In this document: positions 2,219 through 12,906 of the stretch, in pieces
Numbering within the stretch: the stretch's first letter is position 1
Layout: each line of letters begins with the position of its first letter
NCBI RefSeq assembly: GCF_900172345.1
Contig: NZ_FWFY01000001.1
Span: 248,001 to 312,000, forward strand
Origin: Limimaricola soesokkakensis
Lineage (GTDB): Bacteria; Pseudomonadota; Alphaproteobacteria; Rhodobacterales; Rhodobacteraceae
Direction: 5' to 3'
Length of the DNA: 64,000 nucleotides
The notes under the pieces: generated by a model
Database searches by the model: none
Told to the model about the DNA's origin: nothing
What the model saw: only the letters and a program-made list of their open reading frames with translations
Translations under genes and position numbers: made by a program

Positions 2219-3100
2219 ATGACCGTTGCGCCGACCACCGAAGTGAGCCGCCTCCTGCGGGAAGAATTCGACAGCGTTCTCGACGCTTGGTTCGCCACCC
2301 AGAAGCGCGAGGGCGTGCGACGCCCCGACCTGTTCTCCGACCGCGAGAGCCGGCGCCAGCTGTCCGATCTGCTGCGGGCCTTCTCCGAGGCGCTGTCGCG
2401 CATCGACATCACCGAGGCCGTCGACATTGATGCCGACAACTGGTCCGAACTTCGCATGGCGCTGTCGGAGATCACGCTGGTGCGCACCGAGCGCGGCGTC
2501 GCGCCATGGGAGATGACGGCCTTCATGCTGGCGCTGAAGCAGCCCGTCTTCGAGATGCTGAGCAAGAACCTCGCGGATCGGACCGACCGTCTGCTCGCCG
2601 AGGCTGCCGATTTCGGCCGCGTGGTCGATGCGCTTGCAATGCATATCAACGAATACTTCATCGCCGAGCGCGACGAGATCATAGAACGCCAGCGGGCCGA
2701 GATGATGGAGCTCTCCACCCCGGTGGTGCAGCTGTGGGAACGGGTGCTGACCATCCCGCTGATCGGCACGCTCGATTCGATGCGGGCGCAGGAGGTGATG
2801 GAGAACCTGCTGAATTCCATCGTCGAGCACAGCGCCGAGGTAGTGATCGTCGATATCACCGGCGTGCGTGTGGTCGACACGCAGGTCGCGCAGCACCTGC
2901 TGCGGACCGCCGCGGCGGTCCGACTGATGGGGGCCGAGGCGATCATCTCGGGCATCTCGCCCAAGATCGCCCAGACCATGGTCGAGCTTGGCGTCGACGT
3001 GGGCGAGGTGACGACCCGCCCCTCGATCCGTGCCGCGCTCGCCGAGGCATTCCGTCGCGTCGGCTTCCAGATCAGCCGCATCGAGGACACCCGTGTCTGA
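2219..3100 (+). CDS. rsbR: RsbR-like stressosome scaffold protein (RsbRD N-domain + STAS)
   Basis: This 293-residue protein begins with an all-helical sensor-like domain (about 10-170) of the RsbRD N-terminal type and ends with a STAS domain (about 170-285). The STAS domain keeps VVDT with Thr221, equivalent to RsbR Thr171 of Bacillus. An IAQT motif with Thr253 lies where the second regulatory phosphosite is expected. In stressosomes RsbR forms the mixed core with RsbS, which holds RsbT until a signal releases it. The start at 2219 is chosen because AGGA at 2209-2212 lies 6 nt upstream; the adjacent ATG at 2216 would be only 3 nt away. It is the first gene of a five-gene overlapping operon. 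Confidence 0.85.
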   Translation: MTVAPTTEVSRLLREEFDSVLDAWFATQKREGVRRPDLFSDRESRRQLSDLLRAFSEALSRIDITEAVDIDADNWSELRMALSEITLVRTERGVAPWEMTAFMLALKQPVFEMLSKNLADRTDRLLAEAADFGRVVDALAMHINEYFIAERDEIIERQRAEMMELSTPVVQLWERVLTIPLIGTLDSMRAQEVMENLLNSIVEHSAEVVIVDITGVRVVDTQVAQHLLRTAAAVRLMGAEAIISGISPKIAQTMVELGVDVGEVTTRPSIRAALAEAFRRVGFQISRIEDTRV

Positions 3101-3455
3101 AGCGGCCTCGATCTACACCGTCGACAAGGTCCTGCTCGTCGCGATTCGCGACAACATCACCGACACCGACATCATCAACCTGCAGGAGGATCTCTCCGAG
3201 CGGATCGTGAGTGAGGCGGCGCGTGGCGTGGTGATCGATATTGCCGCGCTCGAGATCGTCGATACCTTCGTCGGCCGCATCCTCGCGCAGCTTTCCTCGA
3301 TTTCGCGGCTGTTGGCGGCCGAGACCTACATCGTGGGCATGCGCCCGGCGGTGGCGATGACGCTGGTCGAACTTGGCATGGATCTGCCGGGCTCGAAAAC
3401 GGCGCTGTCGCTGAGCCACGCGCTGCGCGCGCTGAAGGCCAAGGGTCTGGCGTGA
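3093..3455 (+). CDS. rsbS: RsbS-like STAS-domain stressosome protein
   Basis: This 120-residue protein is a single STAS domain. IVDTFVGR places Thr58 where Bacillus RsbS carries its RsbT-phosphorylated Ser59. It would be the small core subunit that sequesters RsbT and releases it after phosphorylation. The GTG start at 3093 has GAGG at 3083-3086 and overlaps the end of rsbR by 8 nt, which implies translational coupling. The switch residue is Thr rather than Ser; both are phosphorylatable. Confidence 0.85.
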   Translation: MSEAASIYTVDKVLLVAIRDNITDTDIINLQEDLSERIVSEAARGVVIDIAALEIVDTFVGRILAQLSSISRLLAAETYIVGMRPAVAMTLVELGMDLPGSKTALSLSHALRALKAKGLA

Positions 3456-3859
3456 GCGGCCCGCCGGCGCAGCCGGCGGGGCGGGTGGAGTTGCGGCAGG
3501 AGCGCGATGTCGCGGCAGCCCGTATCGCGGTGTCGAAGGCGATGGACGCGCTGAACGCGCGGGCGCTGCGCAAGACCCGCTTCGTCACTGCCGTGAGCGA
3601 GATCGCCCGCAACGCGCTCGACCATGGGGGCGGCGGCGTGCTCGAGATCTATCGCCTTGATCGCCCGCGCCGCATCATGATCCGCTGCAGCGATCAGGGG
3701 CCCGGCATCGCCGATATCGATCAGGCGATGACGGACGGCTTCTCGACCGCGCGGAGCATGGGCAAGGGGCTCGGTGGTGCGCGGCGGCTGGTCGATGCCT
3801 TTCGCATCGAAAGTCGCGTCGGGGCGGGCACCACGATCGAGATGGAGGCCAATCCATGA
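3452..3859 (+). CDS. rsbT: RsbT-like serine/threonine switch kinase
   Basis: This 135-residue protein is one GHKL (HATPase_c) domain of the RsbT/RsbW class. The N-box has Glu50 and Asn54 (SEIARNALDH), the G1 box is DQGPGI (81-86) and the G2 box is GKGLGG (104-109). In Bacillus, RsbT phosphorylates RsbR and RsbS, leaves the stressosome and activates a partner, the RsbU phosphatase. No RsbU is encoded here; the partner is probably one of the next two gene products. It starts at a GTG overlapping the rsbS stop (GTGA, 3452-3455). Confidence 0.88.
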   Translation: MSGPPAQPAGRVELRQERDVAAARIAVSKAMDALNARALRKTRFVTAVSEIARNALDHGGGGVLEIYRLDRPRRIMIRCSDQGPGIADIDQAMTDGFSTARSMGKGLGGARRLVDAFRIESRVGAGTTIEMEANP

Positions 3860-4854
3860 GACATGTCGTCGATATATCCGATCCCAGTGCCGTGGCCGAG
3901 GCGCGGCGGCTGGCGCGCGCTCTGGCCGACGAGTGCGGGCTTTCGGTCGAGCGCACCGAGGCGATGGCGATCGTGGTCACGGAAATGGCCACCAACCTCC
4001 TGCGTCATGCCCGCGGCGGGCAACTCCTGCTGCAGCGCCAACCCGGTACCAGGTCCCGCGTCTGTATCGCCGCCATCGATGCCGGACCCGGTATCGCCGA
4101 TATCGGCCTCGCCCTGTCCGATGGATTTTCCACCGGTTCGAGCGCCGGTGGCGGGCTCGGTGCGATGCGCCGCTTGGCCGATAGCTTCGAGATCCGCTCG
4201 ACGCCGGGGCAGGGTACCGTGGCCGTCTGCGGCTTTGGCCCGGCGCCGGTGCTGGCGGGGGTCGAGATCGGCGCCTTTCTGATGAACTACCCCGGCGACC
4301 GCGCCTGTGGCGACGCGGTCTTCGCGCGCGATGTCGCCGGTCGTGTCGACCTGCTCGCCGTCGACGGGCTGGGCCACGGCCCGCGCGCCGAAGTGGCGGC
4401 GGCCGAAGCGGTGGCGGGAATCGAACCCCTCCGCGGCGAGGACCCTGCGCGGCTGTTGTCCGAGTTGTCCGCCCGGCTTGCCGGCAGCCGCGGATCCGTG
4501 GCGGCGCTGGCGCAGATCGAGGCGGCGGATGGGCGGCTGCGACTGGCCGGAATAGGCAACATCGCGGCGCTCTTGGTGAGGGCCGATGGGCAGGTGCGAC
4601 GTCTAATAAGCCGCGAGGGGCGGCTAGGCGGCGCGGTGCGCCTGCCCCCGGTCGAGAGCGCGGAGATGGGCCGGGGCGACGTGCTCATCCTGCATAGCGA
4701 CGGCCTTTCGACGCTGCGCAGCCACGCGGAACTGCCCCCACTTGCAGGAATGAGCAGCGCGATGATCGCGGCACATCTGATGCGCGACCGTAACAAGGGA
4801 CGCGACGATTGTTGCGTGCTGGTGGCGCGGCTCGCTTCGGAGGACGCCGAATGA
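3856..4854 (+). CDS. RsbT-like ATPase domain fused to RsbX-like SpoIIE/PP2C phosphatase
   Basis: This is a 332-residue two-domain fusion. Residues about 5-125 repeat the RsbT-type GHKL fold: N-box Glu43/Asn47, DAGPGI 75-80 and GGGLGA 98-103. Residues about 135-328 form a compact SpoIIE/PP2C phosphatase with metal-binding acidic motifs GD (152-153), DGLGHG (170-175), SDG (281-283) and DD (317-318). RsbX resets stressosomes by dephosphorylating RsbR and RsbS, and this domain is the natural candidate. The ATG overlaps the rsbT stop (ATGA). Whether the N-terminal domain is an active kinase or only a docking module cannot be read from sequence. Confidence 0.82.
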   Translation: MRHVVDISDPSAVAEARRLARALADECGLSVERTEAMAIVVTEMATNLLRHARGGQLLLQRQPGTRSRVCIAAIDAGPGIADIGLALSDGFSTGSSAGGGLGAMRRLADSFEIRSTPGQGTVAVCGFGPAPVLAGVEIGAFLMNYPGDRACGDAVFARDVAGRVDLLAVDGLGHGPRAEVAAAEAVAGIEPLRGEDPARLLSELSARLAGSRGSVAALAQIEAADGRLRLAGIGNIAALLVRADGQVRRLISREGRLGGAVRLPPVESAEMGRGDVLILHSDGLSTLRSHAELPPLAGMSSAMIAAHLMRDRNKGRDDCCVLVARLASEDAE

Positions 4855-6011
4855 GACTGACCACGCTGAAGATCGAGGCCGACGAGGACATCGTGCGGCT
4901 GCGCATGGTCGGTCAGGAGGTGGCGCGGCATTGCGGCTTTGCCAAGTTCGCCGAAACCCGGATCGTCACCGCGCTCCTCGAGCTGGGGCGCAACATCATC
5001 CAGCATGGCGGCGGCGGGCGGATGACCCTGTCGCTGGAACCGGTGGCCGGCAACCTCGAGCTTGCGGTGGAGGCGATCGATCAGGGGCCGGGCATCCCCG
5101 ATCTGGAAGCCCGCCTCGCCGGGGGCGACCCTCTGCCCGGCGCCGGACGCCAGCCGGGGCTCGGCCTCGGGCTACGCGGCGTGCAGCGCATCGCCGACCG
5201 GATGGAGGTCGACAGCGGTCCCGAAGGGACTCGGATCAAGGCCGGCTTCGACACCCGTCTCGCCGCGAACGAGGCGGCGCGCATCGGCGCCGCGATCGGC
5301 GAGGCGCTGGCGGCGCTGCGTCGCGCCGATCCCGCCGCGATGCTGGCGCAGCAGAACCGCGACCTGCTCGACGCCATCGAGGAACGGGACCTGCTCATGG
5401 CCGAGGTGCATCACCGCACCAAGAACAACCTCGCTCTCGTCACCGGGTTGATGCGGCTCAGCCGCAACGCGGCCCAGAGCGAGGAGACCAAGCGGGTGCT
5501 GCGCGATCTGGAGCTTCGGGTGCGGGCGATCACCACGATCCACGATCAGCTGCAACGCGCCGCCGCCGCCGATCACGCGCCGCTGCTGCCGCTCTTGCGC
5601 GATGTGGCCGAGCACACGCGTCAGGCATTCTCGACGCCCGATCAGGAGGTCACGGTAGTCGTCACCGGCGAGGCGCTGAGCCTGTCGGGCAATGCCGCGA
5701 CCGATCTCGCCCTCGCGGCGGGCGAGCTGATGACCAATGCCTGCAAGCACGCCTTCGCGGATCGCGAACGCGGTCGCCTCCATGTCTCGCTCACGCGGGA
5801 GGAGGGGATGCTGAAGCTGGTGGTCTCCGACGATGGCTGCGGTCTCGCGCCGGGGATGGAACGGCCGGAACGCTCGGATTCGCTCGGATGGCGGATGATC
5901 CGGACCATGGTGCAGAAGCATGGCGGCTTCGTGCGCACCTCCGGCGGCAGCGAGGGGCTGACGGTGGAATTGGGCTTTGACGAGGCGCAGCTCGGCCTGC
6001 ATCAGGCCTGA
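4851..6011 (+). CDS. soluble histidine kinase: RsbT-like ATPase domain + HisKA_2 + HATPase
   Basis: This 386-residue cytoplasmic protein has no membrane segment. Residues about 1-135 are a third RsbT-like GHKL domain (Glu44, Asn48, DQGPGI 78-83, GLGLGLRG). A helical linker (about 140-183) leads to a HisKA_2 dimerisation/phosphoacceptor domain (EVHHRTKNN, His187/His188). A second, kinase-type HATPase follows (GELMTNACKH, then DDGCGL 327-332). It starts with ATGA overlap at 4851, so all five genes are translationally coupled. The kinase may be the output of the stressosome module. HisKA_2 kinases commonly feed PhyR-type general stress signalling in alphaproteobacteria, but no response regulator lies beside it here. 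Confidence 0.85.
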   Translation: MRLTTLKIEADEDIVRLRMVGQEVARHCGFAKFAETRIVTALLELGRNIIQHGGGGRMTLSLEPVAGNLELAVEAIDQGPGIPDLEARLAGGDPLPGAGRQPGLGLGLRGVQRIADRMEVDSGPEGTRIKAGFDTRLAANEAARIGAAIGEALAALRRADPAAMLAQQNRDLLDAIEERDLLMAEVHHRTKNNLALVTGLMRLSRNAAQSEETKRVLRDLELRVRAITTIHDQLQRAAAADHAPLLPLLRDVAEHTRQAFSTPDQEVTVVVTGEALSLSGNAATDLALAAGELMTNACKHAFADRERGRLHVSLTREEGMLKLVVSDDGCGLAPGMERPERSDSLGWRMIRTMVQKHGGFVRTSGGSEGLTVELGFDEAQLGLHQA

Positions 6012-9377: not shown

Positions 9378-10877
9378 ATGACCCCCAAGACCCATGCCCG
9401 GACCGGCGTTCCGGGGCTCGATGACGTTCTCTCCGGAGGGCTCACGCGCAACCATGTCTTTCTTCTCGAAGGGGCGCCCGGCACGGGTAAGACCACGACA
9501 GCGATGCGGTTCCTGCTCGAGGGGGCGGAGCGAGGCGAGGCCTGCCTCTACGTGACGCTGTCCGAGACCGAGGAGGAACTGCACGACAGCGCTGCCTCGC
9601 ATGGCTGGACGCTGGACAACCGGATCTCGATCTTCGAGGTGGTTCCCGCCGAAAGCCTGCTCGACGCCGACCAGCAGCAGAGTCTGCTCTATTCGTCCGA
9701 TCTCGAATTGGGCGAGGCGACGCGGCAGATCTTCGCCGCCTTCGAACGAGTCCGACCGCAGCGCGTAGTGATCGACAGCCTCTCGGAAATCCGGCTGCTG
9801 GCGCAGGGCTCCTTGCGCTACCGCCGCCAGATCCTTGCCATGAAGCATTACTTCGCCCGTCAAGACGCCACGGTGCTGATGCTCGACGACCTGACGGCCG
9901 AGGCGCATGACCGCACGGTGCATAGCGTCGTGCATGGCGTGATCCAACTCGAGGAACTGGCGCCTGATTACGGCGCCGAACGACGGCGGCTGCGGGTCAC
10001 CAAATATCGCGGCCAGCGCTATCGCGGCGGCTATCACGATTTCGCCATCAAGACCGGCGGGATCGAGGTGTTTCCGCGCCTCGTGGCTCTCGAACACCGC
10101 ACCGACTTCGACCGCCGCCCCAACGGTAGCGGCATCCCGGCGCTCGACCAGCTGCTTGGCGGCGGTATCGAGCAGGGCTCGAGCACGCTGGTGCTGGGAC
10201 CATCCGGCACCGGCAAAAGCTTGTTCTCGCTGCAATTCGCCTTGGCCGCCATCGATCGTGGCGAACGCGCGGCGCTCTTTGTCTTCGACGAGGAGCTGGG
10301 CCTTATGGAGGCCCGGCTGGCCAAGCTTGGCATCGACATCCCTGCACTGCGCGCCAGCGGCGCCCTGCAGGTCGAGCAGGTGGATGCGGCCGAAATGTCG
10401 CCCGGCGAGTTCGCGCAGAAGGTCCGCGACAGCGTGGTCGAACGCGAGGTGCGCTGCGTCGTGATCGACAGCATGACCGGCTATCAAGCAGCAATGCCGC
10501 AGGAGAACGCGCTGGTGCTGCACATCCACGAGCTGCTGCAATTCCTGAACCGTCAGGGCGCCTCGACATTCCTCACCGTTGCGCAGCACGGTCTGGTGGG
10601 CGACATGAAGTCACCGATCGACGTCACCTATCTGGCCGATACCGTGATCCTGTTGCGCTACTTCGAAGCGATGGGAAAAGTGCGCCGCGCGGTCTCGATC
10701 ATCAAGAAGCGCACCGGGGCGCACGAGGACACCATCCGCGAATACCGGATCGGCGCCGCTGGGCTCGAGCTCGGTGCGCCGCTGCAAGGATTCCAGGGTG
10801 TATTGCGCGGCGTGCCGGATTTCGTCGGGTCCGCCGATCCGCTGATGAAGGTAGGCGCCGATGACGCGGGGCTTTGA
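9378..10877 (+). CDS. KaiC-family double-domain ATPase
   Basis: This 499-residue protein has two RecA/KaiC domains, with P-loops GAPGTGKT (32-39) and GPSGTGKS (about 274-281). In canonical KaiC the CI domain has a Glu-Glu pair after the P-loop and the CII domain has adjacent Ser/Thr phosphosites. Here the first Glu of the CI pair is replaced (VTLSET), the CII equivalent reads DEE, and the Ser431-Thr432 position appears as Thr417-Tyr418 (DVTYLADT). No kaiA or kaiB is in view, so a true clock is doubtful. It is followed with 17-nt overlap by a hybrid histidine kinase, a common pairing for non-clock KaiC homologues that act as signalling ATPases. Confidence 0.85.
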   Translation: MTPKTHARTGVPGLDDVLSGGLTRNHVFLLEGAPGTGKTTTAMRFLLEGAERGEACLYVTLSETEEELHDSAASHGWTLDNRISIFEVVPAESLLDADQQQSLLYSSDLELGEATRQIFAAFERVRPQRVVIDSLSEIRLLAQGSLRYRRQILAMKHYFARQDATVLMLDDLTAEAHDRTVHSVVHGVIQLEELAPDYGAERRRLRVTKYRGQRYRGGYHDFAIKTGGIEVFPRLVALEHRTDFDRRPNGSGIPALDQLLGGGIEQGSSTLVLGPSGTGKSLFSLQFALAAIDRGERAALFVFDEELGLMEARLAKLGIDIPALRASGALQVEQVDAAEMSPGEFAQKVRDSVVEREVRCVVIDSMTGYQAAMPQENALVLHIHELLQFLNRQGASTFLTVAQHGLVGDMKSPIDVTYLADTVILLRYFEAMGKVRRAVSIIKKRTGAHEDTIREYRIGAAGLELGAPLQGFQGVLRGVPDFVGSADPLMKVGADDAGL

Positions 10878-12906
10878 TCTCGCCCGGGCGCTGATCCTCG
10901 CGCCGGAAGGGCGGGACGCGCAGCTCGCGGCGGCGCTGCTGTCAGAGATCGGCCAGGAATCGACCATCTGCGACGACATCCCGAGCTTTGCAGCCCGGTT
11001 GGACGAGAACACCGCGTTCGGCCTTCTCACCGAAGAAACGGTGCGACATGCCGATCTCAGCGTGCTGGCGGCAGCCATCGAGGCGCAGCCGAGCTGGTCG
11101 GCGCTCCCCTTCATCGTGTTGACCCGGCATGGCGGCGGCCCGGAGCGCAATCCCGAGGCGGCGAGGCTGTCCGAAATCCTCGGCAACGTTACCTTCCTCG
11201 AACGGCCGTTCCACGCCACCACCTTCGTCAGCGTCGCACGCGGCGCCCGGCGCGGCCGAGATCGCCAGTTCGAGGCCCGCGCTGCGGTCGAGCGGCTGCA
11301 TCGCAGCGAAGAGACGCTGCGCACCGCCCTCAAGGCCGGTCGCCTCGGGGCCTGGGAATTCCATCCTGCGACGCAGGAGCTGATGTCCTCGCCGACACTG
11401 CGCGCGATCTTCGGGCGGTCCGAGATGGCGCCCTTCGGTTTCGGAGACTTCATCGACAGCCTGCATCCCGGCGACAAGGCCCACGTGATCGAGACGATCG
11501 AGGGGGCCACGCGCGAGGGCACCGATTACGAGGTCGAGTTTCGCGTGATCTGGCCCGATGGCAGTCTGCGCTGGGTCGCGGCTCTGGCGCGGATCGAGCG
11601 CGGGCCGGAAGGCGAGGTGCGGCTGGTTGGGGTGACCACGGATGTCACCGCCCGCAAGCAGGTCGAGGCGATCCACCGTGAGCAGACCGAGGAACTCGAG
11701 CGGCGTGTGGCGCAACGGACCGCCGAGTTGGAAAGCGCCCATGCCCGGGTGCTGGAGGAGATCCGTCAACGCGAGCGCACCGAGGGCCAGCTCCTGCAAA
11801 GCCAGAAGATGGAGGCGATCGGCCAGCTCACCGGTGGCGTCGCGCATGATTTCAACAACCTGCTGATGGCGGTGATGGGCAATCTGGACCTGCTGTCGCG
11901 CCATGTCGCCGAGGATGCGCGCGCGACCCGCCTGATCGACGGCGCGATCCAGGGCGCGCAGCGCGGCGCGGCACTGACCCAGCGCCTGCTGGCCTTTGCC
12001 CGGCGACAGGAGCTCAGCGTCGAGCCGCGCGATCTCGCCGAACTGGTGCGCGGCTCCGAGGAACTGTTGCGCCGATCCGTCGGTGATCTGGTGGAGCTAC
12101 GCTTCGACCTGCCGCAGGGGCTGCCCCGTGCGCAGGTGGACGGTAACCAGTTCGACCTCGCGCTCCTCAACCTCGCGGTCAATGCCCGCGACGCGATGAC
12201 CGGCGGCGGTAGCCTCGATGTAGCGCTGGCGCTGTGCGACGTTGCCGAGGCTTCAGATCTCGCCCCCGGCAGCTATCTGCGGCTTTCGGTCACCGATACC
12301 GGGAGCGGCATGGACGCCGCCACGCTGGAACAGGCGACTCATCCCTTCTTCTCGACCAAGGAGCTGGGCAAGGGCACCGGGCTCGGCCTGTCGATGATCC
12401 ATGGCCTCGCTCAGCAACTCGGCGGCGCGCTGCGACTGTCGAGTGCGCCGGGGCAGGGCACCCGCGCCGAACTCTGGCTGCCCACTGCAACGGTCGGAAC
12501 CAGAGCCGAGGCCGCCCGTGCCGCCGAGGCCGCCCCGGCATCGGGCGAACGGCGTGGCGCCCTGCGCATCCTCTTCGTCGATGACGACGCGCTCATCGCG
12601 ATGAGCACCGTCGATCTGTTGGAGGATCTGGGCCATCAGGTGATCGAGGCTTCCTCGGGGCCAGAGGCGCTGAAGGTGATCGAAAGCGCCGAGCCGATCG
12701 ACCTGCTGATCACCGATTTCTCGATGCCGCGAATGAATGGTGGCGAGTTGGCACGTGCCGCGCGCAAGCTGCGCCCTGCACTGCCCATCTTGCTGGCGAC
12801 CGGCTATGCGGAGCTCCCGGAGGGCGAGGCGCTCGAGCTTCCGCGTCTCGCCAAGCCCTACATGCAGCGCCAACTCGCGGAGGGGATCGCGCGCCTCGGT
12901 CTTTGA
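10861..12906 (+). CDS. hybrid sensor histidine kinase (pseudo-receiver, PAS, HisKA, HATPase, REC)
   Basis: This is a 681-residue soluble kinase. Residues about 8-130 look like a degenerate receiver without the phospho-Asp. A PAS/PAC sensor (about 150-265) is followed by a coiled coil and a HisKA domain ([11 protein letters not shown], His near 327). The HATPase ([25 protein letters not shown]) and a C-terminal receiver (about 565-680; VDDDAL, phospho-Asp in [14 protein letters not shown], Lys in LAKPY) complete it. The start codon lies inside the kaiC-like gene (17-nt overlap), so the two are co-expressed. The pair probably works together, with the ATPase as input or scaffold and this kinase handling phosphotransfer. 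The downstream regulator is unknown. Confidence 0.85.

Follow-up and report, generated by a model that had tools for sequence, protein, structure and literature searches.

To what output is a stressosome coupled in an alphaproteobacterium? The question is raised by five overlapping genes on the + strand at positions 2219-6011 of a 64,000-nucleotide (nt) stretch of the Limimaricola soesokkakensis genome, from here on referred to as the window (contig NZ_FWFY01000001.1, positions 248,001 to 312,000; G000:C23:248001-312000 in a 3.94-Mb draft assembly). A first-pass annotation had read them as RsbR, RsbS, RsbT, an RsbT-like/PP2C fusion and an RsbT-like/HisKA_2 kinase, and the open reading frames, the overlaps of 8, 4, 4 and 4 nt and the Pfam domains all agree with this assignment. 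We propose, with a probability of about 0.5, that the operon encodes a stressosome in which the output kinase has an RsbT-type docking domain of its own and probably phosphorylates PhyR. Its features are:

2219-3100, + strand: rsbR, RsbRD_N and STAS domains; a second in-frame ATG lies at 2216
3093-3455, + strand: rsbS, GTG start, a lone STAS domain
3452-3859, + strand: rsbT, GTG start, a free GHKL protein of the switch-kinase type
3856-4854, + strand: gene 4 (T-PP2C), RsbT-type domain at about 3877-4224 and RsbX-type SpoIIE/PP2C domain at about 4339-4833
4851-6011, + strand: gene 5 (T-HisKA_2), RsbT-type domain at 4851-5264 (residues 1-138) followed by a helical linker
about 5403-5981, + strand: kinase part of gene 5, HisKA_2 and HATPase, with the H-box His188 at codon 5412-5414
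2108-2215, + strand: leader between the upstream gene and rsbR, in which an EcfG-type promoter motif was not found

The first three proteins carry the sequence features expected of stressosome components, and their closest solved relatives are stressosome proteins, in line with the first-pass annotation. RsbR (Pfam: RsbRD_N, 7.7e-17; STAS, 1.2e-14) is closest to a chain of the Vibrio vulnificus stressosome (7o0i_B, 4.2e-37), the likeness lying in the STAS half. Two acceptor-type threonines, T221 (codon 2879-2881) and T253 (codon 2975-2977), are invariant in 11/11 sequences and align with the VVDT and IAQT motifs of the solved RsbR chains 9o4r and 9o3o. RsbS (STAS, 2.9e-10) is closest to Moorella RsbS (2vy9, 4.8e-24); its T58 (codon 3264-3266) aligns with S58 of the Moorella protein, and the acceptor position is Thr in seven of eight rows and Ser in the Protoglobin-type row L032. 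RsbT (HATPase_c, 2.8e-10; HATPase_c_2, 4.3e-9) matches SpoIIAB and has the N-box residues E50 and N54 and the G1 residue D81; it is predicted to be the free GHKL Ser/Thr kinase within the operon. The fixed stoichiometry that had earlier been read from the gene overlaps was dropped. Overlaps point to co-expression, and subunit numbers in solved stressosomes are unequal, with 48 RsbR versus 12 RsbS chains in 7o0i.

Structure models were built on 7 or 8 sequences from one genus and are of middling confidence. The N-terminal half of RsbR was modelled as all-helical (mean pLDDT, the predicted local distance difference score, 66.2 for the whole model) and aligns with 3zta, which we take to be the Moorella RsbR N-domain (Z 14.0, root-mean-square deviation (rmsd) 2.6, 139 residues), with the RsbR N-domain 2bnl (Z 11.9, rmsd 2.7, 133 residues) and also with globins. 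Unlike the RsbR proteins of L032, L105, L113 and L114, in which Pfam detects Protoglobin, window RsbR gave no Protoglobin match up to E 0.1; it has RsbRD_N instead. Since no histidine is invariant within residues 1-150 of the 11-sequence alignment, the N-terminus is likely a globin-like sensor without heme.

The fourth protein combines HATPase_c_2 (9e-14) with SpoIIE (1.7e-14). Its PP2C half matches 3zt9 (3.1e-17), presumably from Moorella, and RsbX (3w40, 5e-10). Five aspartates (D153, D170, D282, D317 and D318), including the predicted metal ligands, are invariant in 11/11 sequences. By its sequence the phosphatase half is of the RsbX (feedback) type, a point that goes beyond the first-pass annotation. 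It differs from the single-domain RsbX of Vibrio-type RSTX modules by its N-terminal RsbT-type domain. RsbU was considered as an identity for gene 4 and rejected, as the PP2C matches among solved structures are just 3zt9, RsbX 3w40 and, weakly, Rv1364c.

The fifth protein contains two GHKL stretches and a HisKA_2 domain (8.7e-16; 58.2 bits against a cut-off of 22.3). Residues H187, H188, R189, N192 and N296 are invariant in 11/11 sequences, in agreement with a HisKA_2/HWE kinase. At its N-terminus Pfam finds HATPase_c_2 and no RsbU_N match, and the model of residues 1-136 adopts the SpoIIAB fold (1th8, Z 15.8, rmsd 2.0, 123 residues). The kinase part lies near the blue-light kinase 4r3a (Z 18.7, rmsd 5.8, 191 residues). 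It should be noted that the Foldseek matches listed for this model are kinases and that SpoIIAB turned up with a second aligner. No receiver gene was found among the scanned neighbours of the operon.

The operon therefore holds four GHKL domains by Pfam, namely three of the RsbT type and the kinase's own. We refer to the free RsbT as T, to the phosphatase-bound RsbT-type domain as T4 and to the kinase-bound one as T5; their G1 boxes read DQGPGI, DAGPGI and DQGPGI, respectively. That the three are one family, multiplied by duplication and fusion, had been proposed earlier, and descent from unrelated GHKL families had been named beforehand as an outcome that would refute the stressosome reading. 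This was checked and did not refute it: an RsbT profile run against the whole genome returns the three domains as its top matches (227.7, 99.4 and 79.2 bits), followed by a 28.1-bit match in a frame of 495 amino acids. In a maximum-likelihood tree of 97 RsbT-type domains sampled across the phylum, the 32 T4 rows form one group (support 100/91) and the 21 T5 rows another (99/98). Free RsbT makes up one or two groups: the best tree splits it, and a single group is not rejected (p-AU, approximately unbiased test, 0.448). The alignment has 134 columns, few for the number of rows, the tree has no outgroup such as SpoIIAB, and it was built without L137_T4, L169-L181 and the worn N-termini of L117, L135 and L136. 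Because each fused kind forms a single phylum-wide group, the tripling of RsbT appears to be old, and T, T4 and T5 seem to be ancient classes, each passed down alongside the others; a recent local duplication was rejected in view of these classes. The catalytic roles of the N-box Glu and Asn are known from SpoIIAB. The Glu is kept in all 95 rows of the three classes (42/42 T, 32/32 T4 and 21/21 T5), and the Asn is found in 92 of the 95 (42/42 T, 32/32 T4 and 18/21 T5).

Conservation of the five-gene order was also followed up. Among 198 sampled genomes of the family, a search with RsbS gave a match in eight, and seven of these, L. soesokkakensis included, carry the complete set of five genes in an unchanged order, the joints varying between an overlap of 8 nt and a gap of 4 nt. 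Proteins of the six other genomes are 40-93% identical to those of the window, the lowest values being 57% for RsbR, 61% for RsbS, 46% for RsbT, 40% for gene 4 and 42% for gene 5. Near-identical loci are also present in named Limimaricola records, gene 5 of Limimaricola sp. G21655-S1 being 98% identical. Recurrence of one order in six other genomes argues that the arrangement is not due to chance. Five neighbouring genes of the window, used as queries, found no match in five 16-17 kilobase (kb) loci of other genera, so that the five genes stay together and their surroundings vary. Spread through the family is patchy. In the eighth genome (G017), a Protoglobin-type RsbR is accompanied by RsbS and RsbT, and the locus lies where a contig ends.

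Beyond the family, RsbS profiles were run on 385 genomes of the class and on 398 of the phylum, of which 14 and 38, respectively, gave a match. New positives were fetched (12/12 for the class and 23/35 for the phylum, the 12 left out being mostly weaker) and their gene order was read with local profiles. The resulting 54 typed loci are a non-random sample, as two families were searched purposely and L040 almost equals the window. An RsbX-type gene is present in 54 of 55 loci examined, with L176 being cut. The T-phosphatase fusion occurs in 44/54 typed loci and a T domain on the next gene (called at 40 bits or more, the next value below being 10) in 27/54, all of them among the 44. By local profile, 14 of the 27 T5 loci have a HisKA_2 core (six family genomes, L040, L106-L108 and L169-L172), which Pfam confirmed in 6/6 tested (L106, L107, L108, L169, L027 and L030). 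Eleven of the remaining 13 were examined with Pfam, which found HisKA in all 11 and a receiver in 10. By these domain assignments, the partner of T5 is HisKA_2 in part of the lineages and a HisKA kinase, mostly with a receiver, in the others. The next gene of the Protoglobin-type loci L105, L113 and L114 has RsbU_N (3/3 scanned), so T5 stands where RsbU_N does in these loci. In 17 loci the T-phosphatase fusion is present and the gene after it lacks a T domain; in L112 and L121, for example, a HisKA kinase follows.

Which output could such a kinase serve? The earlier suggestion of an output other than sigma-B held in one draft genome scanned with Pfam, where no further stand-alone STAS protein of the RsbV kind (six STAS places, of which the four beyond the operon fall in frames of 436-621 amino acids) and no small RsbW-like kinase (24 HATPase_c_2 matches, of which the 20 beyond the operon fall in frames of at least 342 amino acids) was seen; sigB itself was not searched for. 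The same genome encodes a general stress response locus at G000:C23:528-532 kb with PhyR (366.9 bits against an NCBIfam cut-off of 240), NepR, an ECF-type sigma gene, named EcfG from its position, and a HisKA_2 kinase. Full-length PhyR was found in 10/10 T-HisKA_2 genomes tested and NepR in 13/14 genomes. HWE/HisKA2 kinases coordinate the stress response in alphaproteobacteria (PMC12148442).

A concrete candidate comes from a related lineage. Among 58 fetched loci scanned, full-length PhyR was found in five, plus L182, which extends one of them. In the alphaproteobacterial genus g455 (L106 and L169-L172, from G543 and G1007-G1010), a PhyR gene stands 15-16 nt before rsbR on the same strand in 5/5 genomes, and gene 5 is T-HisKA_2. 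Three of the five operon PhyR proteins were tested, and all lie above the NCBIfam cut-off (309-310 versus 240 bits). The family of g455 has RsbS in 13 of 82 genomes; here phyR adjoins 5/5 T-HisKA_2 loci versus 0/9 other stressosome loci (Fisher p 0.0005), a value tempered by the fact that the five loci are one genus and one event.

The proposed mechanism starts from direct observations: gene content, order and conservation, the domain families, the kept active-site residues and the single group formed by each fused domain type. RsbR, with a globin-fold sensor domain and a STAS domain, and RsbS would build the scaffold, and under stress RsbT would phosphorylate RsbS T58 and RsbR T221/T253. RsbT would have been duplicated twice long ago. 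One copy, as N-terminus of the RsbX-type phosphatase, may deliver the feedback eraser to the phosphorylated STAS proteins; the other, as N-terminus of the HisKA_2 kinase, would let the scaffold hold and release the output kinase itself, in place of activation by free RsbT acting on an RsbU_N domain. Once released, the kinase would pass phosphate in trans to a response regulator, PhyR being the likeliest, and phosphorylated PhyR would remove NepR from the ECF sigma factor. The PhyR gene in the operon of the related lineage and the PhyR, NepR and ECF sigma genes of the L. soesokkakensis genome are likewise observed. That the proteins assemble into a complex, that the fused domains dock on it and are released, that phosphate reaches PhyR and that stress is the signal are predictions from sequence. 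More broadly, and more tentatively, the stressosome, as the front half of the Gram-positive general stress response, may have been wired directly into the alphaproteobacterial PhyR-NepR-EcfG pathway via a histidine kinase with a duplicated RsbT at its N-terminus; this direct-output design, in which a scaffold holds and releases output enzymes, would then be found in several classes of the phylum, the adaptor having been swapped between kinase families.

A number of observations weigh against this proposal. Gene 5 could not be identified as PhyK (NF051872), reaching 85.2 bits against a cut-off of 750 with a partial match at 162-333. The G2 region is more variable in T5 than in T and T4, and the T5 domain of L126 is not strong enough for Pfam to detect. 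Full-length PhyR is also present in 6/13 comparison genomes, which makes its co-occurrence with T-HisKA_2 weak. In g455, nepR is located away from the operon phyR, whose product may therefore be an extra copy; G543 has two further PhyR matches of over 250 positions elsewhere. No phyR was found beside the operon in Limimaricola or in the other family loci fetched. For the HisKA_2 cores of the family and g455, a single capture is neither shown nor rejected (p-AU 0.464), and the PhyR link may therefore not extend to the family; with the kinase-core tree undecided, PhyR as target in the window rests on family-level knowledge and another lineage. An EcfG promoter at rsbR as a sign of feedback was rejected, since the motif was not found in the 300 nt (183 nt for L046) upstream of 13 operons of the family, nor in six upstream regions of other families, five of these before phyR. 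The L. soesokkakensis phyR does have such a motif; the scan is a weak test because the loose pattern occurs 10 times in the window. Lastly, a specialised and not general role is described for PhyR of R. sphaeroides (PMC5830050).

The most serious rival, though we judge it unlikely, keeps the same stressosome and gives the kinase another target, either a single-domain hub of the MrrA kind or some other regulator, the general stress response being reached indirectly or not at all. There is room for this in the genome: gene 5 as query finds 17 kinase-type places outside the operon (20 matches minus itself and the two other T domains), two of which adjoin a receiver (C20 and C18), and the kinase tree is undecided on a PhyR link. 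In Caulobacter, MrrA accepts phosphate from at least six kinases (PMC5964349). This rival is opposed by the PhyR gene at the head of the operon in all five g455 genomes.

Less probable still is that the fused RsbT-type domains pair with free RsbT as GHKL heterodimers and not with STAS proteins, so that released RsbT would carry the signal and activate the kinase. GHKL anti-sigma kinases form dimers, and T5 sits at the RsbU_N position of the three Protoglobin-type loci. RsbT activates RsbU through binding of the N-terminus and linker (PMC12143880). T4 and T5, however, retain the Glu of the N-box and, for the most part, its Asn and the G boxes, as expected for handling of ATP and STAS proteins, which is not decisive. 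A plain soluble partner switch, with the STAS proteins as ordinary antagonists and no large shell, is very improbable: the RsbR model is of middling confidence and shell assembly is a prediction, but the best matches are shell-forming RsbR and RsbS proteins and both RsbR threonines are invariant.

The preferred reading, a scaffold that holds and releases its own output kinase, can be set beside known systems. Vibrio vulnificus RsbRSTX with two-component output (PMC9237108) has the order RsbR-RsbS-RsbT-RsbX, no sigma-B and a downstream histidine kinase, and its RsbR STAS domain is the closest to that of the window. In contrast, its RsbR carries a heme globin, its RsbX is single-domain and the downstream kinases have RsbU_N or no detected docking domain, whereas in Limimaricola RsbX and kinase each bear an RsbT-type domain. 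The same source reports that an interaction of Vibrio RsbT with the downstream kinase could not be demonstrated. Bacillus subtilis RsbRST-RsbUVW-sigB-RsbX shares RsbR, RsbS, RsbT, an RsbX-type phosphatase and the conserved acceptor positions; the Limimaricola operon is without RsbU, RsbV, RsbW and sigB, and its output is a histidine kinase. RsbS and the PP2C domain are nearest to the Moorella thermoacetica proteins (RsbS and 3zt9), yet the Moorella output is an RsbU_N-bearing GGDEF protein, a diguanylate cyclase (PMC12143880). With PhyR-NepR-EcfG systems the operon shares the kinase core family, the PhyR, NepR and ECF sigma genes in the genome and the PhyR gene inside the g455 stressosome operon. 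Known HWE/HisKA_2 kinases have other sensors, such as LOV (PMC12148442), while the Limimaricola kinase has an RsbT-type domain and a putative tie to a STAS scaffold.

RsbU_N-bearing kinases next to stressosome genes are already published (PMC9237108 and PMC12143880). Among the openly licensed papers searched, mostly judged by listing, no report was found of an RsbT-histidine kinase fusion or of a stressosome-PhyR link. The RsbT-type domain would offer a physical route from scaffold to kinase, and the PhyR gene in one lineage's operon names a target for stressosome output. If true, two stress-response designs usually seen as alternatives would be parts of one circuit, and a kinase, RsbT, would have turned adaptor. 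Compared with the first-pass annotation, the RsbRST core, the GHKL kinship and the non-sigma-B output stand and the fixed stoichiometry does not; the old phylum-wide duplication and PhyR as a concrete candidate output are additions.

Several loci of the survey show further arrangements. Two consecutive free RsbT genes followed by a free RsbX are found in L116 (2013-5778, G479), L132 (2000-4713, G697) and L181 (6491-9152, G989), which may represent the unfused state of the T-phosphatase fusion or a fission; two of the three were in the tree and are placed beside T4 with weak support (68/93). Very long kinases lie downstream of RSTX genes in L117 (6418-9393), L135 (4602-7364) and L136 (4275-7436); their first ~120 residues resemble a worn-down GHKL domain by eye, and profiles gave no match there. 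In L115 (6917-8347, G380), a GGDEF-EAL protein follows the T-phosphatase fusion, and the output there is likely cyclic-di-GMP.

Within the window, the gene before rsbR (953-2107) encodes a helix-turn-helix protein with weak DUF1403/RHE_PE00001 similarity; it is unmatched in the loci of other genera and precedes rsbR in all seven Limimaricola loci reaching that far. Further downstream, at 9378-12906, a gene for a double-domain KaiC-like ATPase overlaps by 17 nt with one for a PAS-HisKA-HATPase-receiver hybrid kinase. This pair lies directly ahead of ruvC and ruvA, and both genes also match in L040-L043 and L045.

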